The position numbers and the translations under genes were made by a program. A DNA stretch of 64,000 nt from Clostridia bacterium (GTDB lineage: Bacteria; Bacillota; Clostridia; Oscillospirales; Acutalibacteraceae). A model generated the notes under the pieces. That model saw only the letters and a list, made by a program, of their open reading frames with translations. It was not told where the DNA came from and made no database searches. Positions 18,297 through 40,341 of the stretch are shown here, piece by piece. Location of the stretch: the NCBI GenBank assembly GCA_017416765.1, contig JAFQBE010000005.1:1-64000 (forward strand), written 5' to 3'. The first letter of the stretch is position 1. Each line of letters starts with the position of its first letter.

Positions 18297-18313
18297 GGAG
18301 GCAACTGTCAGTT

Positions 18314-19075
18314 ATGAAAAAAATTTATCTTATAGCGGTGGTAATCGCTCTGGCGGCAGGCCTTGCAACATACTTTTTTGCAAATGAGCTGAAAACAAGC
18401 AAAATCGTAACAGGTGTAGATGATGCAACTGTTCTGATTGCGCTTAGGGATATAGATGAAAACACAATTCTTACAGCGGATATGTTCCAGGAAGTTAAAA
18501 TGCCGGTTACCGCGGTTTCCTACGGTACGGTAAGCAAGACTAACGATATCATCGGTTATATGTCCGGTGTTAAAATTCTCAGAGGCGAACAGCTTATGGC
18601 AGGTAAGCTGATACCTGTCGGCGAGGAAAACGCAAAGGGCAGGCTTTCGTATCAGCTTGAAAACGGAAAGTATGCCTACACAATCGAAATTGATGCACGC
18701 AACAGTATGGCATATTTCCTTAAAGAAGGCGACCGAATCAACATATACGACAGTGTTTCGCCCTCTGCCAAGCCTGCGCTTGAAAACATACTGGTGCTTA
18801 AAATTGGCGATTATGCCGCAAACAAGCAGCAGGATGCAGGCGTTGAAATAACATCATACGGTGTAATGACGCTTGAGCTTGATGAAAAGCAGATTGCAAA
18901 ATTCCTTGATTTGGAAAAAGCCTACAGAATATCTCTTGTTTCGTATGTTGAAGCGTACAGCCTTGCAGACGATATAGCGGCTGCAGGCATACCCGAAGAC
19001 CAACCTGCAGAACCGCAGACAAACTACGGTATGGGCGAAATTACAACCGCACCGCCGACTACAGAAAGCAACTGA
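18314..19075 (+). CDS. cpaB: Flp pilus assembly protein CpaB/RcpC (SAF domain), 253 aa
   Basis: The N-terminal membrane anchor (IYLIAVVIALAAGLATYFFA) is followed by an SAF/CpaB domain (VLIALRDIDENTILTADMFQ, then ILRGEQLMAGKL) and a beta-rich C-terminal half (MTLELDEKQIAKFLDLEKA). In Gram-negative Tad systems RcpC works at the secretin; with no outer membrane here it presumably organises the assembly machine at the membrane or wall. The tail is Thr/Pro-rich. Confidence 0.87.
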   Translation: MKKIYLIAVVIALAAGLATYFFANELKTSKIVTGVDDATVLIALRDIDENTILTADMFQEVKMPVTAVSYGTVSKTNDIIGYMSGVKILRGEQLMAGKLIPVGEENAKGRLSYQLENGKYAYTIEIDARNSMAYFLKEGDRINIYDSVSPSAKPALENILVLKIGDYAANKQQDAGVEITSYGVMTLELDEKQIAKFLDLEKAYRISLVSYVEAYSLADDIAAAGIPEDQPAEPQTNYGMGEITTAPPTTESN

Positions 19076-19099
19076 TAATTGATTGGAGATGAAACGGCT

Positions 19100-20302: not shown

Positions 20303-20316
20303 TGTGAGGTGTTGAT

Positions 20317-22651: not shown

Positions 22652-22667
22652 TACGGAGGTGAGCTTT

Positions 22668-23591: not shown

Positions 23592-23956
23592 TGCTTATGA
23601 AAAAGATTATAATTATTAATAACAAAAGAATAGTTACCAAAAATGCAGAGCTTGCCGATTCGTTCTTTACCCGTTTCAGGGGTCTGATGTTTCGCGAATC
23701 TATAGCAGAGGATTATGCGCTGCTTATCACTCCCTGCAATCAGATACATATGCTGAACATGAGGTTTGCAATTGATGCGGTTTACCTTGATGAATCGGGT
23801 ACGGTTGTAAAAATTGAACGCAATGTTCAACCGGGTAAAATCTGCAAAACGGTAAAACAGGCAAAAAGTGTAATTGAAGTAAATGCCTTTGCTGCGGCAA
23901 GGCTCGGAATACATGAAGGCGACACCCTAAAAATAACTGTGGGGGATGAAAAATGA
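23591..23956 (+). CDS. DUF192 family protein, 121 aa
   Basis: A small beta-rich protein with the DUF192 pattern FTRFRGLMFRE, then CNQIHMLNMRFAIDAVYLD and a C-terminal RLGIHEGDTLKI. It overlaps tadC by one base and the next gene by four (ATGA), so it is firmly part of the Tad operon. The family has no established role; its repeated presence in Gram-positive Tad loci, recalled from general knowledge, suggests an assembly-associated function. No signal peptide is visible. Confidence 0.85.
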   Translation: MLMKKIIIINNKRIVTKNAELADSFFTRFRGLMFRESIAEDYALLITPCNQIHMLNMRFAIDAVYLDESGTVVKIERNVQPGKICKTVKQAKSVIEVNAFAAARLGIHEGDTLKITVGDEK

Positions 23957-24945
23957 AAAAAGCTAAAAACGAAAGCGTAAAAGATACAGTACTTGAAGAA
24001 AACAAAAATACAGCCAAAAACCAGCCCGTACGCGGTAAGGAAAAAGGGGACAGCGAAATGCTGTTTAAAAAGGTGCTTTACGGCTATGACCCCGATGAAG
24101 TAGCTTCCTATATAAACGAGCTTAACCGGACATATGAATCAGCGGCGCGTATGCACGAAGCAAAGCTTTCTTCAATTAAGGAGGAGCTTGTCCTTTCAAA
24201 CAGGGAGCGCGATTCATACAGCGAAAAGTATAAAGAGTGTCAGATAAAGCTTAATTCGATAGAAAAGCCTGATACGAAAACGGGCAGCGAAGAATATGAA
24301 AGCATAATTGCTCAACTCAAAGCCCGATGCGAACAGCTTGAAAACGAAAATGCCCGTTTGAAGTCGGCAGAAAGCAGTTCTTCTGACAGCGGTTATGCGG
24401 ACAGAGTTTTATTGCTTGAAGCTGAAATTTCAAAGCTTGAAGAAAGCAATGCAAGCTTACAGCGCGAGAATACAGAGCTGTTAAATAAATTGCAGAAAAG
24501 CGAAAACATCAGCGAAGAATACAAGGCTGTTTTTGCACAGCTTGAAGCAGCAAAAGCGCAGCTTGATGTAAAAGAAAAAGAGCTTGCCGAAAAGAATGTA
24601 ATTCTTGAAGAAAAGGCAGCTGAAATAAATGAACTTCTTGCACAAACAGAAAATTTCAAAAAGCAGTCTGCGGAGCTTGAAATCAAAAACAGTTTACTCA
24701 ATCAGCGTGTAAGCGAAAATGAAGATGAACTTATCCGCCTGAAGGATGAAAACAAAATTCAGGCTTTTGAACACGCAGAAAAAATAAATTCGCTTGAAAC
24801 CGAACACGCAAAGGATAAGCTCGCTATGCAGAAGGAGCTGAAGCTTTACGGCTATTATGTTGACCGTGCAGAGCTTACCCTTGGTGAACTCACAAAGCAG
24901 ATGGAGCAGATAAAGCAATCACTAAATTCGGTACAGGAAAAATAA
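23953..24945 (+). CDS. DivIVA-like coiled-coil protein in the Tad operon, 330 aa
   Basis: Residues ~36-65 (MLFKKVLYGYDPDEVASYIN) resemble the N-terminal lipid-binding/dimerisation domain of DivIVA/GpsB proteins. The rest is a long Glu/Lys/Ala-rich coiled coil up to ~residue 325, with many repeats of leucine at heptad spacing. DivIVA-type proteins bind curved membrane and recruit partners at poles or septa. Inside a Tad operon with a TadZ-type ATPase, a role in siting the pilus machine is a fair inference. No enzymatic domain is present. Its start overlaps the DUF192 stop. Confidence 0.72.
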   Translation: MKKAKNESVKDTVLEENKNTAKNQPVRGKEKGDSEMLFKKVLYGYDPDEVASYINELNRTYESAARMHEAKLSSIKEELVLSNRERDSYSEKYKECQIKLNSIEKPDTKTGSEEYESIIAQLKARCEQLENENARLKSAESSSSDSGYADRVLLLEAEISKLEESNASLQRENTELLNKLQKSENISEEYKAVFAQLEAAKAQLDVKEKELAEKNVILEEKAAEINELLAQTENFKKQSAELEIKNSLLNQRVSENEDELIRLKDENKIQAFEHAEKINSLETEHAKDKLAMQKELKLYGYYVDRAELTLGELTKQMEQIKQSLNSVQEK

Positions 24946-24991
24946 AACGGGTTCGGATTATACTCGTCACTCTACGAAAGGAGTGCTTAAA

Positions 24992-26740
24992 ATGCTGCAA
25001 AAAAGAATAAAAGCTTTTGCCAAAAAAGAAGACGGTGCAGTAATGGTTATTGCGGCATTGAGCCTGGTAGCGTTTTTGTCAGTGGTTTCGCTTGTTACGG
25101 ATATGGGGCTGAAATACCACCAGAAAAGCAAGCTGCAAAGCGCAATGGATTCTGCGGCACTTGCCGCTGTGCGCTATATGCCCGATGAGCAGACTGCAAA
25201 AGCTGTTGCGCTTGAATATGTAGAAAAAAACGGCTTTACAACTGACAGCGTTGTTGTTGAATTTCCAAGCAGCGAAATAGTCCGCGTTTCCGATTCAAGA
25301 AAAGGCAAAACTGTATTTGCAAGCCTTTTCAATATCAATTCCGTACAGATTAATGCAAAGGCGGCAGCGCGCTATGTAAATAAAAATATGGCGATTGATT
25401 TTGAATATTTAATGTTCCATGGAGATAATTCACAGTTCAATCTCAACGGTCATTACAATGTCGGCGGCAGTGTTTTCGGCAACGGCAATGTTTATGCAAA
25501 CGGCAGCGGCAGTACAATTTCGGGTACGGTTTTTTCAGCTGAAAAGGCAGATTATAATCAGTACAGCGTAACTGTAAGCCGACTTGAAAGCAATGTGAAA
25601 ACACAGGAAATGCCGGATTTTGATGAAACCATAATGTCCGTTGTACCCGAAGTAACACAGGGTATGTTTGAAAAAGTATATAATCCTATAAATAAATCGA
25701 ATTTCTATCTCAACCGTTATCCGGCGGGCGCAACCATAAACTCGTCAATTTCAATCAACGGTAACACCTATTGTCCGGGCAGCCTTTCAACAGGATATTT
25801 TTCCGATGTGCTGATTATTTACGGCGATTTATATGTTGAGGGAGATTTTAGCCCCCAGTGTCCGGTATATGTCAAAGGCAATGTGTACTGTGGCGGCAAC
25901 CTTACAACAACATGGGATAAGTCTTTCACCGTCGGTGGCGATTTATATGTAGGCGGCAATTCAACCTTCCAGGGCAATACACAGATTTACGGCAATTATT
26001 TTTATACCGGCGGAAATCTTGTCCGCGGTTCAACCTACAGCCTGCTGTGCGATTGTGAAACCTATGCAGGCGGTAATGTAACGCTCAACGGTTCTACAAC
26101 CTTCAACGGTCCGGTTTATTGCAGGGGTGTTTTTGATAAGCAGGGCAGCGTTGCTATGAGCGTAAAAGGCAATATGTACATTTACGATACCCTTAAACTA
26201 CAAAGCGGCGGCACTACCGTAAACGGCAGTATTTATGTCTGGGGCAAAAACGCAACCGATGAAGCACCCGCAGCTGATATATCCGGTCCGTTTACATTGA
26301 AAGGTGACCTTTATAACAGAAAAAAAGAGCTTTTGCTTTCGGGGCAGGGCAATTACGATATAAATGGTATAGTGTACAGCGGCGGCAGTCTTTCAACCAA
26401 CCAGGGCTCAAGCGGTATTACCTTGAACGGCTGCATGATAGCCGAAGACGATATAAAAATAGGCGGCAGTACGCATACCTATAACGAAGCAGGTGCAACG
26501 CTTTCCATCTATTCACGAAAAGGGGATATAACGCTCTATTCACAGCAGGGCGGCTTTGATTTGTGGGGTATAGTATATGCGCCAAAGGGCGATGTTGCAC
26601 TCGCATCAGGCGATTTCGATATCCACGGCAGTATTATCGGCAACACTATTACCTGCAGCCCCGGCGGATTGAATATGACTTATAACGACCGCGAGCTGCC
26701 CTATTCCAAAGCTGTAAAAGCAGCGGTATTGATTGAATGA
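24992..26740 (+). CDS. tadG: TadG-like pilus protein with polymer-forming (bactofilin-like) repeat domain, 582 aa
   Basis: ATG 24992 sits nine bases after AAGGAG; a GTG nine bases earlier overlaps poorly. The N-terminus KKEDG|AVMVIAALSLVAFLS resembles a TadE/G leader, with Ile in place of Glu at +5, followed by LQSAMDSAALAAVRYM, typical of TadG. From ~residue 140 there are about twenty short Gly/Asn-rich repeats such as GNVYANGSGSTISGTVF, GDLYVGGNSTFQGNTQIYG and GSIYVWGK, expected to form a beta-solenoid. It is the last gene of the operon and would be exported. It may be a tip or adhesive component. Confidence 0.8.
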   Translation: MLQKRIKAFAKKEDGAVMVIAALSLVAFLSVVSLVTDMGLKYHQKSKLQSAMDSAALAAVRYMPDEQTAKAVALEYVEKNGFTTDSVVVEFPSSEIVRVSDSRKGKTVFASLFNINSVQINAKAAARYVNKNMAIDFEYLMFHGDNSQFNLNGHYNVGGSVFGNGNVYANGSGSTISGTVFSAEKADYNQYSVTVSRLESNVKTQEMPDFDETIMSVVPEVTQGMFEKVYNPINKSNFYLNRYPAGATINSSISINGNTYCPGSLSTGYFSDVLIIYGDLYVEGDFSPQCPVYVKGNVYCGGNLTTTWDKSFTVGGDLYVGGNSTFQGNTQIYGNYFYTGGNLVRGSTYSLLCDCETYAGGNVTLNGSTTFNGPVYCRGVFDKQGSVAMSVKGNMYIYDTLKLQSGGTTVNGSIYVWGKNATDEAPAADISGPFTLKGDLYNRKKELLLSGQGNYDINGIVYSGGSLSTNQGSSGITLNGCMIAEDDIKIGGSTHTYNEAGATLSIYSRKGDITLYSQQGGFDLWGIVYAPKGDVALASGDFDIHGSIIGNTITCSPGGLNMTYNDRELPYSKAVKAAVLIE

Positions 26741-27010: not shown

Positions 27011-27042
27011 CTCAACCAAAAGCGCTTCCTGTTTGTCTTATA
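27011..27042 (+). promoter_or_regulatory. ECF-sigma-type promoter 1, in front of the sigma-factor gene
   Basis: CTCAACCAAA (27011-27020), 11 bases, TTTGTCTTATA (27032-27042). The same two blocks with the same spacing precede the giant LRR gene and the 133-residue gene. The CAACC...GTCT arrangement with 17 intervening bases is that of ECF promoters (AAC-type -35, GTC-type -10). An A-rich run lies upstream of all three. Confidence 0.8.
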
Positions 27043-27061
27043 GTTGAAAGGAGGTGCTGTG

Positions 27062-27228
27062 ATGGGGATATAATCAGAATAGTAATTAGCGAATCGGCAA
27101 ACGAAGTACAGTTAAGCACAGATAAAGCACGGATGCTCCTTGAAAGAATCCTTTCAGAGCAGTGCCGTAAAACTTTGAACGGAAGTGACATTGATGGAGA
27201 AAACACAGATAGCTCAGTTGGTGGATAA
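27062..27228 (+). pseudogene. Small frame-disrupted ORF overlapping the sigma-factor start
   Basis: AAAGGAGG (27048-27054) is correctly spaced before ATG 27062, but that frame reads Met-Gly-Ile-stop. A shift by one base at the GGGG run (27064-27067) joins the ATG to an open frame giving DIIRIVISESANEVQLSTDK, then ARMLLERILSEQCRKTL, ending at 27228, 35 bases inside the sigma gene. The reading looks protein-like (a strand followed by an amphipathic helix). It could be a real ~55-residue protein translationally coupled to the sigma factor and broken by an indel or assembly error at the G-run, or a frameshift site. Function unknown. Confidence 0.4.
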
Positions 27229-29128
27229 GGTGCGTGAGGGTGACAACGCAGCCTTTGAAAAGTTGTATAACGAAACAAATAAAGGTGCATATTTCGTTGC
27301 GCTGAAAATAACAGGCAATGAAGACGATGCATTAGATATTCTGCAGGACAGCTATGTCAAAGCGCTCGACAAGCTCGGCCAGCTTAAAGATTCCGCAACC
27401 TTTGTTTCGTGGTTTAATCAGATTGTAGCAAATACAGCAAAGAATTATATCTGCAAATTAAAGCCTGTGCTTTTTAATACAGAGGAAGAGGAGCAGGCTT
27501 CACAGGATTGGCAGACGGAAGAAGATTCGGATTTTATACCCGAAGAATCAATGGATAATGCCGAATCACGCAAAGCGATAATGGATATAATTGACAGTCT
27601 GCCCGAGGACAGAAGACTTTGTGTGTTGATGCATTATTATGACGATATGGGTACAGCGCAGATTGCAAAAGCACTTGAAATTTCTGAAAATACCGTTAAA
27701 AGCCACCTGCACCTTGCAAGAAAATCCATTAAGAAAACCATTGAAGAGCTTCGCCGCAAGGGCGCGACAATTCTCAGCGCAGCGGCTATACCGTTCTTTA
27801 TCTGGATGCTCAGAAGGTCTGCCTCTGCTTGCGTTATGTCGCAGGCGAAGTCGGCGGCTTTGCTTGGCCTTATCAAAGGCGCTTCTGCATTGCTCGGCGG
27901 AGCTGCCGCGGCAGTTGCAGGCGGCGCAGCAATTGCAGCAGGCACGGCAGTAAAGGCAGGCATTGCGGCTAAGGTAATTGCGTGGATTACAGTGCCTAAA
28001 ATTATTGCAACGGTGGTTGGTGCTGTTGTGATTTTCGGCGGCGTTACGGCAGGCGTAAAAATTGCAAAAGACCGCAACCCCGAAACTACCACAACTGAGC
28101 CTACCGGTACATATTACGACAGTTCTTCCGACGATACCACTTTGGTAACATATGTAACGGGTATTGTATATGACGGATATACATTGCCGGAATACTCAAT
28201 TATTGATGATTATTCGCAAAACCCAACAAATGATGGTGAAGATATTCCTGTAGTTGCAACTACAGGCGATTCGGATAAAGTAACCTTCGGTACAGCGCCG
28301 CAGGGTACAACAGCGGTAAATAACAAACCGGCTGCAGCAACAACTGCAAATGGCAACACAACAACCAAAAAAGCACAGCATACGGATACTACAACTGAAA
28401 AAAACACAGCCGCAAGCACCACAAAGCGTAACACAACAACGGCGGTGCAGACTACGGATGAACCGATAAAAACGGTTCCCGCTACTACTGTTCCTGCCAC
28501 AATAAAACCGGTGCCAACAACAAAGCCTGTTACAACTACCGAAAAACAAACCACTACAACCAGACCTACAACAACATCTCAGTCGACTACTACAGCGCCG
28601 GTTACAACAACCGAACCTACAACAGCGGCGAGCGAGTTTGAATATACCGTTTCGGGTTCATCGGCAACAGTTACCGGCTACAAGGGCAGCGGCGGCAGCA
28701 TTTCCGTTCCCACAAAACTCGGCGGAGCAACGGTAACGGCGATTGCAGACTATGCTTTTGAAAACAACACCTCAATCACAAGCGTTTCAGTTCCGTCAAC
28801 CGTTACAAGTATCGGCAAAGGCGCTTTTGCAAACTGCACTTCGCTTACAAGTGTCACTCTGCCGTCGGGACTTCGTTCGTTGGGAAATACAGCGTTCAAA
28901 AATTGCACAAGGCTTTCAAGCGTCAATATTCCGTCAAGCCTGTCTGCAATACCTGCCGGTGCTTTTCAAGGCTGTGCAGCGCTGACTGCTGTTACAATAC
29001 CGGGAACGGTTACATCAATCGGCACGAATGCATTCCAGGGCTGCCCGAACCTGACAATTTCCTGCCCGGAAGGCTCAGCAGCACAGGAATATGCGCAAGC
29101 AAATGGAATAAATTGTAAAAGTTTATAA
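27194..29128 (+). CDS. ECF sigma factor fused to a transmembrane stalk and extracellular LRR domain, 644 aa
   Basis: Start chosen at ATG 27194, with GGAAG eight bases before it. Residues ~15-90 form the sigma-70 region 2 (AFEKLYNETNKGAYFVALKI, DALDILQDSYVKALDKL). Residues ~125-185 form region 4 with helix-turn-helix MGTAQIAKALEISENTVKSH. Residues 191-260 are Ala/Gly-rich and hydrophobic, and ~262-288 make a transmembrane helix (WITVPKIIATVVGAVVIFGG). Residues ~297-478 are a Thr/Pro stalk (TTTEKQTTTTRPTTTSQSTT). Residues ~500-625 carry five BspA-type LRRs (VSVPSTVTSIGKGAF). The predicted topology puts sigma in the cytosol and LRR outside. An upstream copy of its presumed own promoter suggests autoregulation. 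How the sigma domain is freed or inhibited cannot be read. There is no separate anti-sigma gene. Confidence 0.88.
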   Translation: MEKTQIAQLVDKVREGDNAAFEKLYNETNKGAYFVALKITGNEDDALDILQDSYVKALDKLGQLKDSATFVSWFNQIVANTAKNYICKLKPVLFNTEEEEQASQDWQTEEDSDFIPEESMDNAESRKAIMDIIDSLPEDRRLCVLMHYYDDMGTAQIAKALEISENTVKSHLHLARKSIKKTIEELRRKGATILSAAAIPFFIWMLRRSASACVMSQAKSAALLGLIKGASALLGGAAAAVAGGAAIAAGTAVKAGIAAKVIAWITVPKIIATVVGAVVIFGGVTAGVKIAKDRNPETTTTEPTGTYYDSSSDDTTLVTYVTGIVYDGYTLPEYSIIDDYSQNPTNDGEDIPVVATTGDSDKVTFGTAPQGTTAVNNKPAAATTANGNTTTKKAQHTDTTTEKNTAASTTKRNTTTAVQTTDEPIKTVPATTVPATIKPVPTTKPVTTTEKQTTTTRPTTTSQSTTTAPVTTTEPTTAASEFEYTVSGSSATVTGYKGSGGSISVPTKLGGATVTAIADYAFENNTSITSVSVPSTVTSIGKGAFANCTSLTSVTLPSGLRSLGNTAFKNCTRLSSVNIPSSLSAIPAGAFQGCAALTAVTIPGTVTSIGTNAFQGCPNLTISCPEGSAAQEYAQANGINCKSL

Positions 29129-29199: not shown

Positions 29200-29900
29200 A
29201 CAAATGGCTCCCTCAATGAGGGAGCTGTCGAAATCGCTTGCGATTTTGACTGAGGGAGTTATTGCGTAAAGAGGATTGTCAACTGGCTCCCTTGTGTAAA
29301 GGGAGCTGGATTTTGCCAAGCAAAAGACTGGGGGATTGTAAAACAATTTAAAACAACCCCTCCGAGTCGGCGTTGCCGACCCACCTCCCCTTACACAGGG
29401 GAGGCTGTTTGACGACATCTGTAATTACAACGCAAACAGTAGGGGCGATTCACGAATCGCCCGAAATTCACCAGCATATCTCTTTTACGGCGGACAATTC
29501 GTGAATTGTCCCTACGAAAACCTCCTTTTCAAAGGGAGCTGGATTTTGCCAAGCAAAAGACTGGGGGATTGTAAAACAATTTAAAACAACCCCTCCGAGT
29601 CGGCGTTGCCGACCCACCTCCCCTTACACAAGGGAGGCTGTTTGACGGCATCTGTAATTACACCGCTAAACAGTAGGGGCGATTCACGAATCGCCCGAAA
29701 TCCACCAGCATATCTCTTTTACGGTGGACAATTCGTGAATTGTCCCTACGAAAACCTCCTTTTCAAAGAAGGTGGATTTTGCGAAGCAAAAGACGGAGGA
29801 TTGCAAAATTATATATTGATTAATTCTTAACAAGCAACCCTCAGTCAAAATCGCAAAGCGGTTTCGACAGCTCCCTTGAAAGGGAGCTATTGACAATCAC
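29200..29900. repeat. Intergenic repeat array, including a 233-base tandem duplication
   Basis: The gap 29129-30101 contains palindromic blocks of the GGCTCCCT...AGGGAGC and CCCTCCGAGTCGGCG type and GTAGGGGCGATTCACGAATC-like hairpins, known to me as common clostridial intergenic repeats. A unit starting at 29301 repeats almost unchanged from 29534 (period 233), and a third, decayed partial copy starts near 29768. No convincing gene is seen. The downstream end of the gap carries the ECF-type promoter. Confidence 0.8.
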
Positions 29901-29975: not shown

Positions 29976-30007
29976 CTCAACCAAATTCATATCCCGTTTG
30001 TCTTATA
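29976..30007 (+). promoter_or_regulatory. ECF-sigma-type promoter 2, in front of the giant LRR gene
   Basis: CTCAACCAAA (29976-29985), 11 bases, TTTGTCTTATA (29997-30007), 95 bases before the start codon. Identical blocks and spacing to the motif before the sigma gene. Confidence 0.8.
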
Positions 30008-30101: not shown

Positions 30102-33100
30102 ATGAAAACAGCATTTAAGCGCGTTCTCTCTTTCCTCCTTGCGGCAACATTGGTGTTCGGCACGGTAGGTGCGGAAATATCCGGCGTTGATTTTGCCGAT
30201 ATCTTCTCTTTCCAAGCCGAAGCGGCAACCTATTCCGGCACCTTCGGCGATAATCTGACATGGTCGCTTAATACTTCTACCGGTGTGCTTGATATTACCG
30301 GTACGGGTGCGATGTGGAAAACTTATACATTTTCCTCTGTACCGTGGAGTTCTTATCTTTCGTCAATAAAAATAGTTAATATCGCTGACGGTGTAACAAC
30401 AATTGGAAGATCTGCGTTCTCCGGTTGTGACAGCCTCACCAGTGTTACAATCCCTGACACAGTGACTATTATTGGTGAATCTGCATTTTGGGTTTGCCGT
30501 AGTCTCGAAAGCGTAACAATCCCCAACGGTGTAATAACCATAGAACAACAGGCATTTGAAAATTGCGACAGCCTTAAAAGCATAACAATCCCCGCAAGTG
30601 TAACAACGATCGGGATGAGAGCGGTTGCCTATAATGACAGCCTTGAAAGTATAACCGTAGACGAAAATAATGAGTATTTTTCAAGCGATAAATGCGGAGT
30701 TTTATTTAATAAGAATAAAACTGAGCTTATTCAGTATCCTATCGGTAATGCAAGAACAAACTATGAAATTCCATACGGTGTGAATAAAATCGGCGAGTAT
30801 TCGTTTGATGGGTGTGCCGGGCTTACAACTGTAACAATCCCTGACAGCGTAACGATTATTGACGATAGCGCGTTCTCTGATTGTAATAATCTCACCGGTG
30901 TAACAATCCCTGACAGCGTAATAACAATAAATGATTATGCTTTCATTTATTGTGATGCTCTCACAAGCGTAACGATAGGCGAACAAGTATCACAGATCGG
31001 AACGTGGGTTTTTATGGGATGCCAGAAGCTTCCGTATATAACCGTTGACAAAGACAATGCGAGCTTTTCAAACGACGAATCAGGAACATTGTTTAACAAA
31101 GATAAAACAGAGCTTATTCAATATCCTGCCGGCAATTCAAGAACAATCTATACAATCCCCGACAGCGTAACTACAATTGCCAAATATGCGTTTTACAATT
31201 GCGATAATATTATCAGCGTAGTAATTCCGGATAGTGTTACAACAATAAATTCGCGTGTTTTTGAAGGTTGTGATAGCCTGAAAAATGTAATAATCCCGGA
31301 CAGCGTAACAAGTATAGGCAATTCTGCGTTCTATTCTTGCGACAGCCTTGAATATGTACACATTCCTGCAAGTGTCACAAGTATAGGTTCAGGTATTTTG
31401 AACTACACCTCTGCCTACATCTGTTCCGATACGGAAGACTGCTACGCAAAGACTTATGCGGATAATAACAGCATTGAGTTTAAGCTTTGCGACGGTCACG
31501 GCGTTGAAAAGTTACTGACCAAGATTGAAGTTAAAACAATGCCCACAAAGACGGAATACTTCGTCGGTGATACGCTTGACACAACCGGTCTTACACTCAC
31601 AGCAACATTCAGCGACGGTTCAACCGAAACAATCGATTCCGGCTTTACTTGCTCACCCACAAAGCTCAACACAGCAGGCAAGCAGACAATCACTGTTACA
31701 TACGGCGGCAAAACCTGCACATTTGATGTAACGGTTGAACCGGCTGACGAAATAGTCAGCGGTCAGTGCGGCGATAACCTCACCTGGACACTCAATATTA
31801 CAAAGGGTATTCTCGATATTACCGGTACGGGTGCGATGACGGATTATACATCTTCATCTGATGTTCCTTGGTATTCATACCGCAGAAGTATCAAAACTGT
31901 CAACATCGCAAGCGGCGTAACAACCATCGGTGATGATGCGTTCTATTTTTGCGACAGCCTCACAAGCGTAACAATCCCCGACAGCGTAACAACCATCGGT
32001 GATGATGCGTTCCGATATTGCGACAGCCTCACAAGCGTAACAATCCCCGACAGCGTAACAACCATCGGTGATGATGCGTTCCGATATTGCGACAGCCTCA
32101 CAAGCATAACTGTAGATGAAAATAACAAATATTATTCAAGTGACAGCTACGGTGTGTTGTTTAACAAGGATAAAACAACGCTTATTCAGTATCCTATAGG
32201 CAACGCAAGAACAAGCTATACAATCCCGGACAGCGTAACAACCATCGGTGATAATGCATTTCGATCTTGCACCAGCCTTACAAGCATCACAATCCCCGAC
32301 AGCGTAACAACCATCGGTTATGAGGCATTTCGATGTTGCTACAAGCTCACAAGCGTAACAATCCCCGACAGCGTAACAACCATCGGTTATGAGGCGTTCT
32401 ATGATTGCGACAGCCTTACAAGCGTAACAATCCCCGACAGCGTAACAACCATTGGTAATTCTGCGTTCTATATTTGCAACAGCCTTGAATATGTACATAT
32501 TCCTGCAAGTGTTATAAGTATAGGTTTAATTATTTTATCCGGTACTACAGCCTACATCTGCTCCGATACAGAAGACTGCTATGCAAAGACCTATGCAGAT
32601 GAAAATGGTATTGAGTTTAAGTTGTGTGACGGTCACGGCGTTGAAACGGCAGAAAAAATAACCGACTATAAACAAGGCGATATTGTTGAGTTCGGATGGT
32701 ATCCGCAGAGCGAGGTTACGAATACGGCTCTTATTTCCGCACTCAATTCTGCCGGCGGCGAATGGATATCGTATAATTACTACAGCGGCACAGGCTCAAA
32801 TAATGACGGCAAAATGACAGCCGGAGACTATATGCGGTATAAGGATGTAGTTTACGGCTCGGAAAAATACCGCGGCGTTGTTTTCGATTCTTACAGACCA
32901 GTTAATACCGGTAATCTTTGTTCGGCAGGTAATTCCGTCCAGAGCCAATACGGCTACACAATCGGTACGGTGTATTGGTTTAAATATGAACCGATTAAAT
33001 GGCGTGTGCTCGACCCGGCGGTGGGCTTGGTTATGGCGGAAACGGTTATTGATGCCCAGCCGTATAACAACTATGTTCTTAGTAGCGGTACCGATGAATA

Positions 33101-36100
33101 CGGTAAGGACGCATATTGGGGCAGCTCGGCAAAAACGCACTACGCCAACGACTATGCCGAAAGCAGTATACGCGAATGGCTGAATGATGATTTTTATAAC
33201 ACAGCCTTTTCCTCTGAACAGCAGAGTATAATTGAGTATACTACGCTCGATAATTCTGCATATTCAAGCTCATATTCTGCCTACGATTCTGCAACAACTA
33301 CAGATAAGCTTTACCTCCTTTCCTGGAGCGATGCAAAAAACACAAGCTATGGTTTCAGCAGTGGCATAGACTCATTTTCAAAAAGGTATGCTTACCCAAC
33401 AGCTTATGCCAAGGCTCAGGGTGTTTCTGGCAATTCATCCTATGAAACCTCATATTGGTGGTTGCGTTCGCCCGGCAGTGATAGCAAGGGTGCGAGCAGC
33501 GTTTATAGCGATGGCGATCTCCGCAACAACTATTATGTCAGTAATACCCTTGGTATTCGTCCCGCTTTTAAATTTAATCTGAACTCTGAAATCCTTCAAT
33601 CTGAAAAGCCTGAAAATATTACACTTACAAAAATTGAAATAAAAACACTTCCGACCAAGACGGAATACTTCGTCGGTGATACGCTTGACACAACCGGTCT
33701 TACACTTACAGCAACCTACAGCGATGGTTCAACCGAAACAGTTGATTCCGGCTTTACCTGCAGCCCGACAACGCTCAGCTTTGCGGGTAACCAGTCTGTT
33801 ACCGTTACATACGCAGGCAAAACCTGCACATTCCAGGTAACCGTAAAGGCTGTAGAACTTACAAAGATTGAAGTTAAGACACCTCCTACCAAAACAGAAT
33901 ATTTCGTCGGCGATACGCTCGACACAACCGGTCTTACCCTCACGGCAACCTACAACGACGGCTCAACGGAAACAGTTGATTCCGGCTTTACCTGCAGCCC
34001 GACAACGCTCAGCATAGCAGGCAAACCGGGCATAACCGTAAGCTACGGCGGCAAAACCTGCGTATTCCTTGTAACTGTAAAGGAAAAGTATACCTGCTCC
34101 GAAATTAAAGACCAGGTATATACCGGAAACAGACTTTACCCCACATTCAGGGTATACGATGCGGACGGAGCAAGACTCAACGCAGAAGACTATGATATGG
34201 TTTACCGCGATAACATCAATGTCGGTACAGCGTACATAGATGTAAAGGGCATCGGCGAATATTCTGACCTTGATATTATAACCTCGTTTAAAATTGTTCC
34301 CGCAGATGCTTCGGGTTTTGTAATACTGTATTCCGAAAATCACGATTATACGGGCGAGGAAATCACCCCGGCCGTTACGGTAATGTTTGACGACAGAATT
34401 CTTGTTGAAGGCAGAGATTACACACTTTCCTACGCAAATAACATTGAAGTCGGTACAGGTGAAATAACTGTTACCGGCAAGGGCAACTTTGAAGGTTCAA
34501 AAACAGTATATTTCAACATCAATGCGGTTTACACAGAAATAGTTTCCATTGATTCTGTTGACCTTGGTGAAGTTGTTCAGAATACAACATTTTCAGCGCT
34601 CGGTCTGCCTGAAACAGTTACCGGCAGAACAGTATTCAACGAAGCTGTTACGCTAAATGTTTCATGGAACAAGGCCGATTATTCACCCGCAACCGTAGGC
34701 ACGCAGATTATCGGCGGCGTTGTAACCGTACCCGAAGGATATATCCTTGCAGACGGCGCAAAGGCTGTTGCCACAGTAACGGTTGTACCCGACAAAACAG
34801 AAACTGCTGTAAACATTATATCTGTTGAAAGCGAACTTGAAGATATCGAAGTTCTCTACGGTACAGAGTTTTCAGCACTTCCCCTTCCGTCAACAGTAAA
34901 GGCTTATACAGATGTAGGCGAAGCCAGCCTTCCCGTAGTATGGAGCAGCACAGGCTACGATCCGTACTATTATACAGTTGCAGACGGTGTATGTTCCCAG
35001 ACTGTAACAGGCAGAATCAAAACCCCTTACGGTTATATTTTACCTGAAGGCTTTGATACAAGTATCAGCGTAAGGCTTATTATTGTCAAATCAAAAATAG
35101 TCGGTATAGACACCGTTGATATGGGCCTTATGCCGCTCGATTCAACATTTGAAGCAATAGGTTTCCCGAAAACAGTTGCGGTAACAACTCAGACAGGTAA
35201 AAAGCATTTCCTTTCCGTAACATGGGATAAAACAGGCTTTGATTCAAGCACAACAGGCGTTAAAACAGTAAAGGGTACACTGGATATCCCCGAAGGCTAT
35301 GCGCTTGACAGCAGCCTTACCAATGAAGTAACTGCAACAGTTACAATTTCCGATAAAATTATCGGTGCGGCTGATATTGTTTTCCTCATTGATACAACAG
35401 GTTCAATGGGCGACGAAATTTCAAATGTCAGAAGAAATATCAAGATGTTCTCTCAGGCACTCAACAGCTACGGCATTGTTCTGCGCTGGGCTCTTGTAGA
35501 GTACAGAGATATTACCTGCGACGGCAAAACATCCACAAAAATTCATCTCAACGGAACAGAAAACTGGTATCTTGATGTTGCTTCATATGAAAGAGCAATC
35601 GATTCACTTACCGTTACCGGTGGCGGTGACTATGAAGAAACTGTAATTGATGCACTTGAAGCAGCACAGCTGCTCGACAGGAGAGAAAACGCAAGTCAGT
35701 TCTTCATTGTTGTTACTGATGCGGACTGGAAGGTTGAAAACCAGTACGGCGTTACATCAATGGACAGCGAAATATCAAGGCTTCTTTCAAAGGGTATCAA
35801 CACTTCCGTTGTTACCAAAACTTCCTGCTATTCCGATTACAGAAATCTTACAACCCGTACCGGCGGTATACTTGCAAACATCGACGGTAATTTCAAAGAT
35901 GAACTGCTTAAAATAGTTGACCTTATATATTGCGAAATTATCGACCTGCAGATTGAAAGCATAAGCATTACCAAAAAACCGGATAAACTTACCTATGTTC
36001 AGGGTGACCGCTTTGACGGCAGCGGAATGATTGTTACCGCGTACTACAAAAACGGTTCAAGCCGCGAAATAACAGCCTATTCCGTAATGCCTTATGGTGC

Positions 36101-39100
36101 GCTCAGCAAATCTGATACAAAGGTAACTGTAGATTACAGAGGACATACCGATGATGTGGAAATTACTGTAACGGAACCGGAATATCCCGTAAAGAGCGTA
36201 TCACTTAACAAATCAACACTTAATCTTGTTCTCGGTTATTCGGAAACACTTATTGCAACGGTTTATCCTTCAAATGCAACAAACAAAAATGTTTCATGGA
36301 GTTCCTCCAACCCCAACATCGCTTTTGTTAATGAAAACGGTGTAGTTACTGCAAACGGTATCGGCACAGCCACAGTTACCGTAACAACAGATGACGGCGG
36401 ATTTACTGCTGAATGTACGGTAACAGTTACAGCTCCTGAAGTTAAAGCTGAAGAAATTGAACTTGATAAAACAGGTATAGTGTTGTATGTCGGTGACAGC
36501 CAGACCGTTACGGCAACTGTTTATCCCGAAAATACAACAAACAAAACTGTTGTATGGACTTCAAGTGACAGCAGCATAGCAAAAGTATCTGCTGACGGCG
36601 TTGTTACCGGTATCAAGAAAGGTACTGCAACAATTACAGCAACATCTGCAGACGGCAGAATTAAAGCTTACTGTCTTGTAACAGTAAAGGCTGTTGAAGT
36701 AACAAACCTTGAAATCAAGACCATGCCGACTAAGACAGAATACTTTGTCGGCGATACGCTTGACACAACCGGTCTTACCCTCACAGCAACATACAACAAC
36801 GGCACAACTGAAACAATCACAAGCGGCTTTACCTGTTCACCGACAAAGCTCACAACAGCAGGCAAGCAGACAATCACAGTTAGTTACGGTGGCAAGAGCT
36901 GCACATTCGATGTAACAGTAAAGGCTGTAGAGCTTGTCAAGATTGAAATTAAGACGCTCCCAACCAAGACAGAATACTTTGTCGGCGATACGCTTGACAC
37001 AACCGGTCTTACCCTCACAGCAACATACAACAACGGCACAACTGAAACAATTGCAACCGGCTTTACCTGCACGCCTACAAAGCTCAATACAGCAGGCAAG
37101 CAGACGGTTACAGTAAGCTACGGCGGCAAGACCTGCATATTCGATGTAACAGTCAAGGCTGTAGAGCTTGTCAAGATTGAAGTTAAGACGCTCCCGACCA
37201 AGACAGAATACTTTGTCGGCGATACACTCAACACAACCGGTCTTACTCTCACAGCAACCTACAACAACGGCACAACTGAAACAATCACAAGCGGCTTTAC
37301 CTGTTCACCGACAAAGTTCACAACAGCGGGCAAGCAGACAATTACAGTTACATACGGCGGCAAGACCTGCACATTCGATGTAACCGTAAAGGCTGTAGAG
37401 CTTGTGAAGATTGAAATCAAGACTCTCCCGACCAAGACAGAATACTTTGTTGGTGATGCACTCAACACAACCGGTCTTACTCTCACAGCTACATACAACA
37501 ATGGCACAACTGAAACAATCACAAGCGGCTTTACCTGTTCACCGATGGTCCTCAACACAGCAGGCAAGCAGACAATTACAGTAACCTACGGCGGCAAAAC
37601 CTGCACATTCGATGTAACCGTAAGGGCTGTAGAGCTTGTCAAGATTGAAGTTAAGACGCTCCCGACCAAGACAGAATACTTTGTTGGCGATACGCTTGAC
37701 ACAACCGGTCTTACTCTCACAGCTATATATAACAACGGCACAACTGAAACAATCACAAGCAGCTTTACCTGTTCACCGATGGTACTCAACACAGCCGGCA
37801 AGCAGACAATTACAGTAAGCTACGGCGGCAAGACTTGCACATTTGATGTAGAGGTTGAACAGAAAGATTACTCTGTAACCTATATGGTAAACGGCAAGCG
37901 TTATGCAAAGTATATTGTTACAGTCGGTGACCCCGTACCTGCTCCCGCAGTAAATCCGATTGTTGACGGTATGATTTTTGAAGGCTGGAGCCCTGAAATT
38001 GTTCAGCTTATGCCCGCCAACGACCTTGTTTATACAGCTGTTTTCCACAAGCATGTATATACCGGCTCAATTGCAATACATCCCACCTGCACACAGCACG
38101 GCGTTATGCTGTATACCTGCTCCTGCGGCGACAGCTATAACGAAATTATCCCCGCACTCGGTCACGATTGGGGCAGATGGATAACAGTTGTCGAAGCTAC
38201 TCCGTCCTCAAACGGTCAGCAGGTTCGATACTGCTCAAGATGCGGTGCAGCAGAATATGACGTTATTCCTGCCCCCTCTGCAAACTTCCGCGTTGAGCCT
38301 ATCGCTGACCAGGAATACACAGGCTTCGGTCTGTATCCCGCAGTTAAGGTTTATTCGCTTTCAGGCAAGCGTCTTGACGAATACGATCACTACGAAGTAA
38401 GTTACGAAAACAACATAAACTATGGCGTTGCAACTGCAACAGTTAAGGGTGTCGGCGAATATTCAGGTGTTATCAAGGTTAATTTCAACATCGTTAAGAA
38501 GGACATTGCAAATCTCAGCTTTGCTGAAATTCCGGATGTAACCTATTCAGGCGATGCTTACACACCCGACCCCGTCATTTACTACGGCGATATACTCCTT
38601 GTAAAGGATGTTGACTACACGGTCAGCTACTCTGCTAATGTAAATATCGGCAAGGCTACAATTACAATTACCGGTATCGGCAACTACACCGGCACAAAGG
38701 TAATTTACTTCAATATCAGCAAAAACTCAACTTCGTTCAGCGTTCCCGTTGTCGGCAGCCAGGTTTACACAGGTAAGGCCGTAACACCCGATTTCAACCT
38801 CTTCTCGGGCGATAAGCTGCTCATAAAGGGTGTTGATTACACCGTGACTTATGAAAACAATATTAATGTCGGCTACGGCAGAATTATCATTAAGGGTATC
38901 GGTAACTACAGCGGAACAATCGTTGTAATATTCCGTATAGTTTCAACTCAGATTTCTCTTGCAACTGTACCCTCTTTCAGCGATATTGCTTATAGCGGCA
39001 ATGAATTTACACCCGATTTCAATGCTAACCCCATAACCTACGGCGGCAAAAAGCTTGTTGAAGGCGTAGATTTCAAGGTTGAAATTTACAACAACAGAAA

Positions 39101-39782
39101 TGCCGGCACAGTGAAGATTGTTATTATCGGTATCGGCAACTTCACAGGCACAATAGTAATCTATGTAAATATCAATGCTGTTGATATCAGCGGTGTGACA
39201 GTAAGCAGAATAGATGATGTTGAATACAACGGCGCTGCACAGACACCGTTATTTAAGGTTACAAAGAACGGCAAAACACTTGTAAAGGGTGTTGATTATA
39301 CCGTTGAATACCGCAACAACATTTTTGTCGGTACTGCAACAGTAGTAATAAAGGGTATAGGCAACTACAAGGGTGAAAAGAGCTTCACATTCAGAATAGT
39401 TGAACCCACATATTACGAGCTTGTAGTAACAACTGAATCCGAAACACTCGGCTACGATTCAATAATGCAGGTATGGGCAGAAATTAATCCGTACCTTGAA
39501 ATGAATTACACATTCATTTATGAATCATCAAACGCAAAAATAGCATCAGTTGATGAAAACGGTGTAGTAAAGGCTCTTGACGAGGGCGAAGTTGTTATCA
39601 GTGTAACTGTAGTCGATGAAAACGGAAACCCTGTTCTCAATCCTGACGGTGAAGAAATCCGTAGCGAAATCAGAATCAGATGCACAATGACCTTCTGGCA
39701 GAAGATAATTAAGTTCTTCAGAAGCATAGCTGCATTCTTCACAAATTTGTTTACTTTCTCAATAGGTCTTCAGATGCAATAA
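30102..39782 (+). CDS. Giant secreted LRR/Ig-like/VWA surface protein, 3226 aa
   Basis: The signal peptide has an extended segment (residues 1-44, ending FQAEAA). Domains in order, approximate residues: BspA-type LRRs 60-460 (repeats like SVTIPDSVTTIGNSAF); Ig-like group 3 469-546 (KTEYFVGDTLDTTGLTLTAT); second LRR block 547-846; a DUF6273-like domain 853-1163 (EPIKWRVL, SYWWLRSPG); two Ig-3 1176-1328; a YTGN..VGTA-type beta domain; three Ig-4-like 1480-1756; a von Willebrand A domain 1758-1946 with MIDAS DTTGSMG; Ig-3; two Ig-2 2027-2196; five near-identical Ig-3 2200-2586; an InlB-like and a Cys/His segment with GHDWG; five more YTG/NVGTA domains; a final Ig-2; and an aromatic C-terminal tail (FWQKIIKFFRSIAAFFTNLF). 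No LPXTG or dockerin is present. Probably a cell-surface adhesin controlled by the neighbouring sigma factor. Confidence 0.88.
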   Translation: MKTAFKRVLSFLLAATLVFGTVGAEISGVDFADIFSFQAEAATYSGTFGDNLTWSLNTSTGVLDITGTGAMWKTYTFSSVPWSSYLSSIKIVNIADGVTTIGRSAFSGCDSLTSVTIPDTVTIIGESAFWVCRSLESVTIPNGVITIEQQAFENCDSLKSITIPASVTTIGMRAVAYNDSLESITVDENNEYFSSDKCGVLFNKNKTELIQYPIGNARTNYEIPYGVNKIGEYSFDGCAGLTTVTIPDSVTIIDDSAFSDCNNLTGVTIPDSVITINDYAFIYCDALTSVTIGEQVSQIGTWVFMGCQKLPYITVDKDNASFSNDESGTLFNKDKTELIQYPAGNSRTIYTIPDSVTTIAKYAFYNCDNIISVVIPDSVTTINSRVFEGCDSLKNVIIPDSVTSIGNSAFYSCDSLEYVHIPASVTSIGSGILNYTSAYICSDTEDCYAKTYADNNSIEFKLCDGHGVEKLLTKIEVKTMPTKTEYFVGDTLDTTGLTLTATFSDGSTETIDSGFTCSPTKLNTAGKQTITVTYGGKTCTFDVTVEPADEIVSGQCGDNLTWTLNITKGILDITGTGAMTDYTSSSDVPWYSYRRSIKTVNIASGVTTIGDDAFYFCDSLTSVTIPDSVTTIGDDAFRYCDSLTSVTIPDSVTTIGDDAFRYCDSLTSITVDENNKYYSSDSYGVLFNKDKTTLIQYPIGNARTSYTIPDSVTTIGDNAFRSCTSLTSITIPDSVTTIGYEAFRCCYKLTSVTIPDSVTTIGYEAFYDCDSLTSVTIPDSVTTIGNSAFYICNSLEYVHIPASVISIGLIILSGTTAYICSDTEDCYAKTYADENGIEFKLCDGHGVETAEKITDYKQGDIVEFGWYPQSEVTNTALISALNSAGGEWISYNYYSGTGSNNDGKMTAGDYMRYKDVVYGSEKYRGVVFDSYRPVNTGNLCSAGNSVQSQYGYTIGTVYWFKYEPIKWRVLDPAVGLVMAETVIDAQPYNNYVLSSGTDEYGKDAYWGSSAKTHYANDYAESSIREWLNDDFYNTAFSSEQQSIIEYTTLDNSAYSSSYSAYDSATTTDKLYLLSWSDAKNTSYGFSSGIDSFSKRYAYPTAYAKAQGVSGNSSYETSYWWLRSPGSDSKGASSVYSDGDLRNNYYVSNTLGIRPAFKFNLNSEILQSEKPENITLTKIEIKTLPTKTEYFVGDTLDTTGLTLTATYSDGSTETVDSGFTCSPTTLSFAGNQSVTVTYAGKTCTFQVTVKAVELTKIEVKTPPTKTEYFVGDTLDTTGLTLTATYNDGSTETVDSGFTCSPTTLSIAGKPGITVSYGGKTCVFLVTVKEKYTCSEIKDQVYTGNRLYPTFRVYDADGARLNAEDYDMVYRDNINVGTAYIDVKGIGEYSDLDIITSFKIVPADASGFVILYSENHDYTGEEITPAVTVMFDDRILVEGRDYTLSYANNIEVGTGEITVTGKGNFEGSKTVYFNINAVYTEIVSIDSVDLGEVVQNTTFSALGLPETVTGRTVFNEAVTLNVSWNKADYSPATVGTQIIGGVVTVPEGYILADGAKAVATVTVVPDKTETAVNIISVESELEDIEVLYGTEFSALPLPSTVKAYTDVGEASLPVVWSSTGYDPYYYTVADGVCSQTVTGRIKTPYGYILPEGFDTSISVRLIIVKSKIVGIDTVDMGLMPLDSTFEAIGFPKTVAVTTQTGKKHFLSVTWDKTGFDSSTTGVKTVKGTLDIPEGYALDSSLTNEVTATVTISDKIIGAADIVFLIDTTGSMGDEISNVRRNIKMFSQALNSYGIVLRWALVEYRDITCDGKTSTKIHLNGTENWYLDVASYERAIDSLTVTGGGDYEETVIDALEAAQLLDRRENASQFFIVVTDADWKVENQYGVTSMDSEISRLLSKGINTSVVTKTSCYSDYRNLTTRTGGILANIDGNFKDELLKIVDLIYCEIIDLQIESISITKKPDKLTYVQGDRFDGSGMIVTAYYKNGSSREITAYSVMPYGALSKSDTKVTVDYRGHTDDVEITVTEPEYPVKSVSLNKSTLNLVLGYSETLIATVYPSNATNKNVSWSSSNPNIAFVNENGVVTANGIGTATVTVTTDDGGFTAECTVTVTAPEVKAEEIELDKTGIVLYVGDSQTVTATVYPENTTNKTVVWTSSDSSIAKVSADGVVTGIKKGTATITATSADGRIKAYCLVTVKAVEVTNLEIKTMPTKTEYFVGDTLDTTGLTLTATYNNGTTETITSGFTCSPTKLTTAGKQTITVSYGGKSCTFDVTVKAVELVKIEIKTLPTKTEYFVGDTLDTTGLTLTATYNNGTTETIATGFTCTPTKLNTAGKQTVTVSYGGKTCIFDVTVKAVELVKIEVKTLPTKTEYFVGDTLNTTGLTLTATYNNGTTETITSGFTCSPTKFTTAGKQTITVTYGGKTCTFDVTVKAVELVKIEIKTLPTKTEYFVGDALNTTGLTLTATYNNGTTETITSGFTCSPMVLNTAGKQTITVTYGGKTCTFDVTVRAVELVKIEVKTLPTKTEYFVGDTLDTTGLTLTAIYNNGTTETITSSFTCSPMVLNTAGKQTITVSYGGKTCTFDVEVEQKDYSVTYMVNGKRYAKYIVTVGDPVPAPAVNPIVDGMIFEGWSPEIVQLMPANDLVYTAVFHKHVYTGSIAIHPTCTQHGVMLYTCSCGDSYNEIIPALGHDWGRWITVVEATPSSNGQQVRYCSRCGAAEYDVIPAPSANFRVEPIADQEYTGFGLYPAVKVYSLSGKRLDEYDHYEVSYENNINYGVATATVKGVGEYSGVIKVNFNIVKKDIANLSFAEIPDVTYSGDAYTPDPVIYYGDILLVKDVDYTVSYSANVNIGKATITITGIGNYTGTKVIYFNISKNSTSFSVPVVGSQVYTGKAVTPDFNLFSGDKLLIKGVDYTVTYENNINVGYGRIIIKGIGNYSGTIVVIFRIVSTQISLATVPSFSDIAYSGNEFTPDFNANPITYGGKKLVEGVDFKVEIYNNRNAGTVKIVIIGIGNFTGTIVIYVNINAVDISGVTVSRIDDVEYNGAAQTPLFKVTKNGKTLVKGVDYTVEYRNNIFVGTATVVIKGIGNYKGEKSFTFRIVEPTYYELVVTTESETLGYDSIMQVWAEINPYLEMNYTFIYESSNAKIASVDENGVVKALDEGEVVISVTVVDENGNPVLNPDGEEIRSEIRIRCTMTFWQKIIKFFRSIAAFFTNLFTFSIGLQMQ
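36711..37860 (+). repeat. Five tandem 234-base repeats inside the giant gene
   Basis: Units begin near 36711, 36945, 37179, 37413 and 37647 (78 codons each, encoding Ig-like group 3 domains). They differ by only a few bases, and the variants are shuffled between units, which points to recent duplication or gene conversion. Further diverged copies lie at ~31510, 33630 and 33860. Confidence 0.9.
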
Positions 39783-39860: not shown

Positions 39861-39892
39861 CTCAACCAAATTGAATTTTCATTTGTCTTATA
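39861..39892 (+). promoter_or_regulatory. ECF-sigma-type promoter 3, in front of the small exported protein
   Basis: CTCAACCAAA (39861-39870), 11 bases, TTTGTCTTATA (39882-39892), 48 bases before the start codon. Third copy of the motif. Confidence 0.8.
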
Positions 39893-39939: not shown

Positions 39940-40341
39940 ATGAAATTCTTATTTAAACTTTTGATGGTTGTTGTTCTTATGGTAGCTGCAGTTGTAGGAT
40001 TTGAAACTTTGCGTCTGGGCTCTGTCGATGATGCGATAGACTGCGTTGTTCAGGTACTCAATGTCGAAGAACTCAGCGAAGGGCTTGAAGACGCTGTTAG
40101 TGATATTGATATTCCGTCTTTATCGGGTCCGAGAGGAACATACTACTGCGGTTCAAATTCTCTTGAATTCAGAAGCGACGGAACGGTTATTTCAACTTTC
40201 CTTGGATTGCAGGAAAAGGGCAAATTCAGTATGGACGGTAACGAAATAACCTACAGTGGCGGCGGAATAGATACAATAGGTGTTTATGACAGCGAAAATG
40301 AAACCGTAACATTCGCCGGTCAGCTTTATTCAAAAAATTAA
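39940..40341 (+). CDS. Small exported/membrane-anchored beta-domain protein, 133 aa
   Basis: GAGGTG precedes ATG 39940. Residues 4-20 form a hydrophobic signal or anchor (LFKLLMVVVLMVAAVVG) without a lipobox. Residues ~22-60 are acidic and helical. Residues ~66-131 form a small beta domain of the GTYYCGSNSLEFRSDGTV...GKFSMDGNEITYSGG kind seen in many Gram-positive secreted proteins of unknown function. It has its own ECF-type promoter and terminator, so it is a third member of the putative sigma regulon. It could be a modulator of the sigma factor or envelope component; nothing in the sequence decides. Confidence 0.75.
   Translation: MKFLFKLLMVVVLMVAAVVGFETLRLGSVDDAIDCVVQVLNVEELSEGLEDAVSDIDIPSLSGPRGTYYCGSNSLEFRSDGTVISTFLGLQEKGKFSMDGNEITYSGGGIDTIGVYDSENETVTFAGQLYSKN

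Follow-up and report, generated by a model that had tools for sequence, protein, structure and literature searches.

A membrane-spanning ECF sigma factor with a BspA-type LRR domain in a Clostridia bacterium: relatives, candidate regulon and proposed mode of action

What kind of regulator is encoded when an ECF sigma factor continues, in a single frame, into a membrane helix and an LRR domain, and how could its sigma part be switched on? The question is raised by a gene in the window, by which we mean the whole stretch of DNA that was analysed, namely the first 64,000 nucleotides of contig JAFQBE010000005.1 of a Clostridia bacterium of the Acutalibacteraceae. An earlier note had read the gene product as one polypeptide carrying sigma regions 2 and 4, a transmembrane helix, a Thr/Pro stalk and a BspA-type LRR domain. 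The open frame and Pfam bear this layout out, and Pfam, the helix and the topology evidence given below agree that sigma factor, anchor and LRR domain, the last most likely outside, are joined in one polypeptide.

Anatomy and membrane orientation of the sigma protein

The anatomy, as established by computation, is as follows, with residue numbers starting from the ATG at 27194.

27194..29128, + strand: membrane-spanning ECF sigma factor, 644 aa (open frame, Pfam, relatives)
27281..27454, + strand: sigma region 2, residues 30-87 (Pfam Sigma70_r2, 2.2e-6)
27572..27727, + strand: sigma region 4, residues 127-178 (Pfam Sigma70_r4_2, 1.8e-17)
27752..28000, + strand: conserved hydrophobic segment and Ala/Gly-rich linker, residues ~187-269 (alignment of 30 members)
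28001..28057, + strand: transmembrane helix core with GG, residues 270-288 (alignment, hydrophobicity scan)
28085..28627, + strand: Thr/Pro/Ser-rich stalk, residues ~298-478 (sequence, composition, structure prediction)
28628..29125, + strand: BspA-type LRR ectodomain, residues ~479-644 (Pfam, structure prediction)

The frame opens at the ATG and ends at 29128 without an internal stop, and a GTG at 27185, nine bases 5' of the ATG, is an alternative start. The domain check proposed earlier, once run, found both sigma regions and LRR_5 (residues 515-621, 1.1e-33) by Pfam, the sigma part containing only regions 2 and 4, which is the feature of ECF (group IV) sigma factors. In NCBIfam, TIGR02937 (sigma70-ECF) matched the protein with 91.9 bits against a cut-off of 42.9, and among the best 25 of 99 matches no other model exceeded its own cut-off. 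The clear LRR_5 match relates the ectodomain to the BspA-type LRR surface proteins, which are known for adhesion. The helix, previously placed at residues ~262-288, agrees with the core at 270-288, which is moderately hydrophobic (0.35 on an additive scale; several relatives score 2-4, and the one at locus L053 scores 4.66). In the stalk, T, S and P make up 44% of the sampled part. Single-sequence AlphaFold, with a mean pLDDT of 51, gave the LRR part (residues 478-644) as a block with pLDDT mostly above 90 and drew a helix at residues 262-293 at low confidence, nothing outside the LRR part being reliable.

The side of the membrane on which the C-terminal part lies is established indirectly. 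Locus L066 (4506-8848) has three copies in tandem, of which only the first includes the sigma part; the two downstream paralogues begin at the position that corresponds to residue 246 of the L066 sigma protein, nine residues before the helix core, and their helix ends in a lipobox-like AAGC. From these features, the L066 helix seems to be an export signal in the paralogues. At L082, 58 ectodomain residues are 95% identical to part of the product of the next gene, a protein with a signal-peptide-like start and, by reading, dockerin-like repeats. Across 41 members (L079 and L081, whose helix lies elsewhere, included) the 20 residues before the helix hold 77 K/R and 5 D/E, and those after it 82 K/R and 117 D/E; since K/R are as many after as before, the topology is favoured by net charge alone and not by the positive count. 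Taken together, the L066 paralogues, the domain shared at L082 and the net charge make it most likely that the C-terminus lies outside.

That the C-terminal part is instead cytosolic, the helix region passing twice or not at all and the protein being an intracellular regulator, would fit the K/R count, which is no lower after the helix than before it, and the hydrophobic segment that follows region 4. Against this stand the L066 lipobox paralogues, the shared domain of L082, the strong net-charge bias and the scores of the stretches within residues 191-257, which, sampled every six residues, range from 3.2 to 12.5 versus 0.35 for the helix, so that we regard a cytosolic C-terminal part as highly improbable. 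A cytosolic LRR had been named by the earlier note as the result that would speak against its reading, and the indirect evidence favours the outer side. The L066 locus is also a natural split of the outer part from sigma.

Relatives with a conserved core and exchanged ectodomains

A paralogue with the same plan (588 aa, LRR) is encoded on contig 13 of the same genome, and in the genus 9 of the 11 genomes, the own one among them, together contain 13 fused genes, one of which is truncated by the end of its contig. Within the family, 34 of 200 genomes have relatives (E up to 1e-15) and, among the matches listed, 42 of 43 places lie in open frames of 333-1303 aa. The relative in G202, a genome of another genus, is 55% identical over sigma part and helix, in an open frame of 644 aa. 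In the order, an alignment-based search, with the listed matches judged by reading, gave sigma-into-helix matches in at least 30 of 394 genomes from nine families; in a phylum sample of 398 genomes, such matches were confined, among those listed, to the own genome and one genome of the same class, at most five candidates per genome being scored in both searches. The fused form thus looks confined to one class. When the whole protein was used for searching, two loci matched the LRR part only.

A helix-like stretch follows the sigma part in 51 of the 53 sigma-positive frames that were gathered; the exceptions are a plain 167-aa ECF (L099) and L053, which falls just below the threshold. An artefact of assembly or a frameshift joining two genes, a concern raised at the outset and one to which the 47-contig state of the source assembly lends some ground, is for practical purposes negligible: the frame contains no internal stop, the helix-like stretch is present in 50 of the 52 frames from other loci, and the same architecture recurs in other genomes, G202 among them. 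An assembly chimera was rejected on account of these fused relatives and of the low dN/dS (0.06-0.13) of the sigma part in four other pairs of relatives.

Conservation of the core was computed from an alignment of 30 members, in which the sigma part gives way to a hydrophobic stretch that is conserved (LYSxAPxPLLLxL-like) and then to an Ala/Gly/Thr-rich linker; K269, just before the helix, is invariant in 30/30, and a Gly occupies the position of G283 within the helix in at least 90%. A Pfam scan for ectodomains and anti-sigma domains covered 26 members, the window protein included. It found LRR_5 in the window protein and in L060, L061, L064, L065, L070, L075, L077 and L083 (the match of L075, at 23.9 bits, lies under the Pfam cut-off of 27.7), CAP in L062 and WG repeats in L092, and matched no ectodomain family in the remaining 15 of the 26; L068 and L069 have an N-terminal zinc ribbon ahead of the sigma part. 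No anti-sigma family was matched in any of the 26 members, and no anti-sigma gene was found beside the sigma gene among the scanned neighbours (a Tad-type gene, the LRR gene and the 133-aa gene). Varied ectodomains (LRR, CAP, WG, unassigned) sit on a kept sigma-helix core.

The exchange of these ectodomains can be followed in a tree of 65 sigma parts, comprising 52 members and 13 separate ECFs, with the LRR label taken from Pfam for the scanned members and otherwise from BLAST or reading. The label changes nine times, at least four of the changes being forced by strong branches, and in G025 three close paralogues (100/99) bear LRR, CAP and an unrelated ectodomain. Since support is weak at the deep branches and several terminal branches are long, a single origin of the fused family and several origins are both possible. 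In four pairs of relatives, which include the contig-13 paralogue and leave out the window protein, dN/dS lies at 0.06-0.13 over the sigma part, at 0.08-0.41 over the linker plus helix and at 0.22-0.40 over the stalk plus ectodomain. The sigma part is under purifying selection in these pairs, and the ectodomains likewise, but they change faster.

The diversity and faster change of the ectodomains (0.22-0.40 against 0.06-0.13), and their difference between close sigma paralogues, would be expected if the protein were mainly a surface or adhesion protein, whose sigma part reports its own export or folding, with an LRR that has no ligand and a sigma output that acts as feedback on envelope capacity. 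We find this distinctly unlikely, since purifying selection on the ectodomains persists and several of them have recognisable folds (LRR_5, CAP).

Two observations concern the margins of the family. Six more distant ECF frames (L092, L093, L079, L081, L089 and L096), in which the linker is long and the helix falls somewhere within residues 270-529, are further fused types; some of them also have WG or LRR-like parts. At L047 (6341-6535) and L048 (6231-6360), in G005 and G002, there is a back-to-back pair of different fused sigma genes, and after each sigma gene comes a gene whose product begins like a signal peptide.

Promoter copies and surroundings of the gene

In promoters read by ECF sigma factors, the -35 element is typically of the AAC type and the -10 element of the GTC type. 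The pattern AAC-N16-19-GTCT[AT] was found within 300 bases 5' of 13 of 41 fused sigma genes and was absent from that interval in the other 28; in 500 Markov shuffles the number averaged 0.85 and never exceeded 5, versus the 13 observed. Before the other ECF-type genes of the genus it occurred in 0 of 14 cases (13 plain genes and one with a C-terminal helix; L036 was covered for ~150 upstream bases only). In the window three near-identical copies of an ECF-type promoter precede the sigma gene, the gene of a 3226-aa LRR protein and the gene of a 133-aa protein.

27014..27042, + strand: ECF-type promoter copy 1, AACC...TGTCTTATA, 180 bases before the sigma ATG (motif searches, alignment)
29979..30007, + strand: ECF-type promoter copy 2, 123 bases before the LRR gene (motif searches)
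30102..39782, + strand: 3226-aa protein with an N-terminal hydrophobic stretch, proposed target (LRR_5, Big_3, Big_2, VWA, DUF6273)
39864..39892, + strand: ECF-type promoter copy 3, 76 bases before the 133-aa gene (motif searches)
39940..40341, + strand: 133-aa protein with an N-terminal hydrophobic stretch by eye, proposed target (position after promoter copy 3)

No Pfam family was found in the 133-aa protein. The pattern AACCAAA-N9-12-TTTGTCTTA, picked after its three copies had been noticed, has exactly three matches in the 2,771,420-base genome, all in the sigma locus and all with an N11 spacer; its reversed control gave 0 matches in the whole genome, and with two mismatches allowed the window still held only the three promoter copies, against 0.01 expected. 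In 40 genomes AACCAAA-N11-14-TGTCTTATA gave seven matches, three in the own genome, three in G202 and one in G025, with 0 in the 37 others, and its reversed control gave one, in G040. G202 is the genome with the closest sigma, and its matches lie at its sigma gene, at its LRR gene and at another exported-looking protein; that of G025 precedes a 229-aa protein of exported look. In an alignment of five sites, CTCAACCAAA and TGTCTTATA are invariant. Each of the three genomes with the pattern holds relatives of the window sigma, and those of G025 are 43-45% identical. The pattern-free genomes include G002, G005, G057 and G175, which hold relatives that are 41-46% identical, so that the promoter type evidently need not persist at this level of identity.

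Comparable arrangements occur elsewhere: in L072, L084 and L088 a motif is found upstream of or near the sigma gene and again before the next gene. A second pattern, that of the L047/L048 sigma, had, within 18 genomes, three matches in G005 (two before the sigma gene and one before two exported-looking proteins 10 kb away) and one in G002, every one of the four lying at a sigma locus or 10 kb from it; it is less specific, with single matches in 8 of the 16 other genomes and three in the reversed control. The candidate regulon is the strongest evidence on the sigma part, and suggests that this part is working and promoter-specific, with autoregulation and a surface-protein target. From the positions of the promoter copies, we infer that the sigma factor serves its own gene, the 3226-aa surface protein and the probably exported 133-aa protein.

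Two further features lie close to the sigma gene.

27061..27228, + strand: small open frame between promoter and sigma gene, overlapping the sigma start (ORF reading)
29298..29768, no strand assigned: ~233-base unit in two copies (97-98%), between the sigma and LRR genes (sequence comparison)

Compared with G202, the small frame has coding-like differences (14:9:18 by codon position over 96 bases); a canonical in-frame start after the promoter was found neither in the window nor in G202. Similar small frames, with normal starts, precede the sigma gene in a minority of the relatives, namely L064, L065, L067, L069, L072 and L074 (by eye), and it is possible that the frame in the window is a small regulator or leader. 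Rfam gave 0 matches in the window.

Two apparent regularities of the neighbourhood were considered and set aside. The window protein, L060, L066, L053, L054 and L055 each match a protein of their own locus; LRR genes are also found beside sigma genes with non-LRR ectodomains (L047, L048; L063 upstream), so that LRR-to-LRR pairing is only a tendency and not a general rule. A same-strand downstream neighbour with a hydrophobic N-terminus was counted in 23 of the 48 members with a visible downstream ORF, three members being left out by the ORF filter and two at contig ends. As separate-protein ECF genes often precede N-terminal hydrophobic segments too, several other ECF genes of the genus adjoining a next gene with such a segment, this neighbourhood is not distinctive and a downstream secreted gene is no hallmark of the family.

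A Tad/Flp pilus-type gene set (16465-26740) ends just 5' of the sigma gene; it includes a T2SSE ATPase and a TadE/G-like protein by Pfam, the rest having been assigned by eye. The ORFs at 41123-41689 and 62591-63553, for which there was no Pfam match, have a near-same N-terminal part, integrase-like by eye, and the first looks shortened.

Proposed mechanism and known systems

The account that we favour, and hold to be rather probable, is that of an autoregulated one-protein transmembrane ECF system, in which the sigma part would be freed by membrane proteolysis to serve a small private regulon that includes a surface protein. Its sigma activity, off state, proteolysis and sensing are what we infer from the architecture, the promoter copies and analogy. 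The cytosolic sigma part (regions 2 and 4) would be anchored by the single helix, and the Thr/Pro stalk would hold the LRR domain outside. In the off state, the membrane and/or the conserved segment after region 4 would keep sigma from RNA polymerase; since an anti-sigma domain or gene is not evident, inhibition would have to come from tethering or from the post-region-4 stretch. A change sensed or suffered by the LRR would lead a first protease to shorten the outer part, whereupon a site-2 protease would cut the Gly-Gly-containing helix, and the freed sigma part would turn on its own gene and the surface proteins. Release by an outer cut and then a helix cut is probable by analogy with IutY (excerpt of PMC5411451) and RsgI (excerpt of PMC12203970). 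Peptidase_M50 genes, for site-2-type proteases, are encoded in the own genome and in 14/14 control genomes; being near universal, their presence is necessary and not telling. Feedback from the LRR product on the LRR ectodomain is possible, to judge from their shared fold.

Alternatively, the sigma part could work while tethered, recruiting RNA polymerase at the membrane, with the LRR acting by conformation or clustering; as a corollary, surface proteins would be transcribed near their export site. The ~80-residue Ala/Gly-rich linker could give the necessary reach, and the genes of the proposed targets, which are exported proteins, lie next to the sigma gene. Site-2 proteases are aided by residues that break a helix, and the conserved Gly within the helix suits intramembrane cleavage. 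The relatives by design, IutY and RsgI, also act via helix cleavage in the available excerpts, and we consider action in the tethered state unlikely, while granting it some weight, and retain proteolytic release as the preferred account. More tentatively, and as a possible but doubtful extension, the fused proteins could form a lineage-wide one-component transmembrane ECF class, with no anti-sigma domain, recombined ectodomains, private promoters, self-matching LRR feedback, a built-in inhibitor and a linker stop. In such a class, copies may own a private promoter type that drives both their own gene and a giant surface protein next to it; through its ectodomain, the LRR-bearing protein may detect whether its own LRR product is there; the conserved post-region-4 segment would inhibit from within the protein in a way that is new; and the freed sigma part could be guarded by the Ala/Gly-rich linker, as a stop for the protease that trims it.

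As a way of working, the comparison with SigI/RsgI made by the earlier note is apt, although SigI is not usually placed among the classical ECF sigma factors. RsgI of Clostridium thermocellum signals via helix cleavage, and the SigI/RsgI system resembles the present one in that diverse outer sensor domains are mounted on a conserved cytosolic/helix core, and in the regulation of exported proteins (excerpt of PMC12203970). SigI and RsgI are two proteins, whereas the window system is a single polypeptide without an RsgI-type Pfam match.

The merger as such is not a novelty, as sigma factor, membrane anchor and outer domain are already found together in ECF52/SCO4117, ECF48/53 and IutY. The available part of a review (PMC8999054) lists ECF48, ECF52, ECF53 and IutY as sigma factors to which membrane anti-sigma parts are fused, and in SCO4117 (ECF52) of Streptomyces coelicolor a Pro-rich outer stretch is accompanied by a domain that binds carbohydrate (excerpt of PMC5826349). 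In these excerpts (PMC5826349, PMC8999054) ECF52/SCO4117 is alike in that one protein unites an ECF sigma domain, a transmembrane region, an outer stretch rich in Pro and a binding domain, and autoregulation and cleavage-release were proposed there, as here. The transmembrane region is common to both; the outer stretch is Pro-rich in ECF52 and Thr/Pro-rich in the window protein. In the same excerpts, ECF52 has a zinc-finger domain after the sigma part, whereas the window protein and 25 relatives have no such Pfam match; it has a carbohydrate-binding module, whereas the window protein has LRR_5 and its relatives LRR or other ectodomains; and it is described as exclusive to Actinobacteria, whereas the present family probably belongs to a Clostridia-type lineage.

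IutY (ECF243) of Pseudomonas putida, which likewise unites sigma and membrane-anchored sensor in one polypeptide, is released by Prc and the site-2 protease RseP (excerpt of PMC5411451). According to the same excerpt it carries a cell-surface-signalling anti-sigma domain and works with an outer-membrane receptor; a FecR-type anti-sigma domain had no Pfam match in the 26 members scanned. By the zinc-finger or the FecR criterion, the family is therefore placed outside ECF52 and IutY, though it would work alike. The pro-sigma-K of Bacillus subtilis, a substrate of SpoIVFB, offers a likeness in that a sigma factor is itself the site-2 protease substrate, as is proposed here; it is stated not to be an integral membrane protein and, unlike the window protein, has no outer domain (excerpt of PMC6242693).

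A literature search, in the partly available sources, found no description of a BspA-type LRR as a sigma-factor ectodomain or of a family with exchangeable ectodomains on a one-piece sigma; nor did it find an LRR-bearing sigma factor, the 2021 ECF reclassification lying outside its scope, so that a numbered group may exist. With the one-piece union of sigma, anchor and outer domain already known, what is new, as far as these sources go, is probably the LRR or exchangeable ectodomains without a recognisable anti-sigma domain. Two further promoter copies, the exchange of ectodomains and the lack of a recognisable anti-sigma domain go beyond what had been noted before. If the proposed account is true, a surface signal would reach transcription through a single protein whose ectodomains are swapped as modules; its targets could be read from the DNA, since the promoter copies are so few; transmembrane signalling by a sigma factor could be tested in a small three-promoter system; and there would be a handle on the control of giant BspA-type LRR proteins.

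At 48565-61742 of the window, cohesin- and dockerin-bearing proteins of 231, 2050 and 1675 aa, also with Listeria-Bacteroides repeats, LRR and Ig-like domains, make up what looks like a cellulosome-like or surface-scaffold set.
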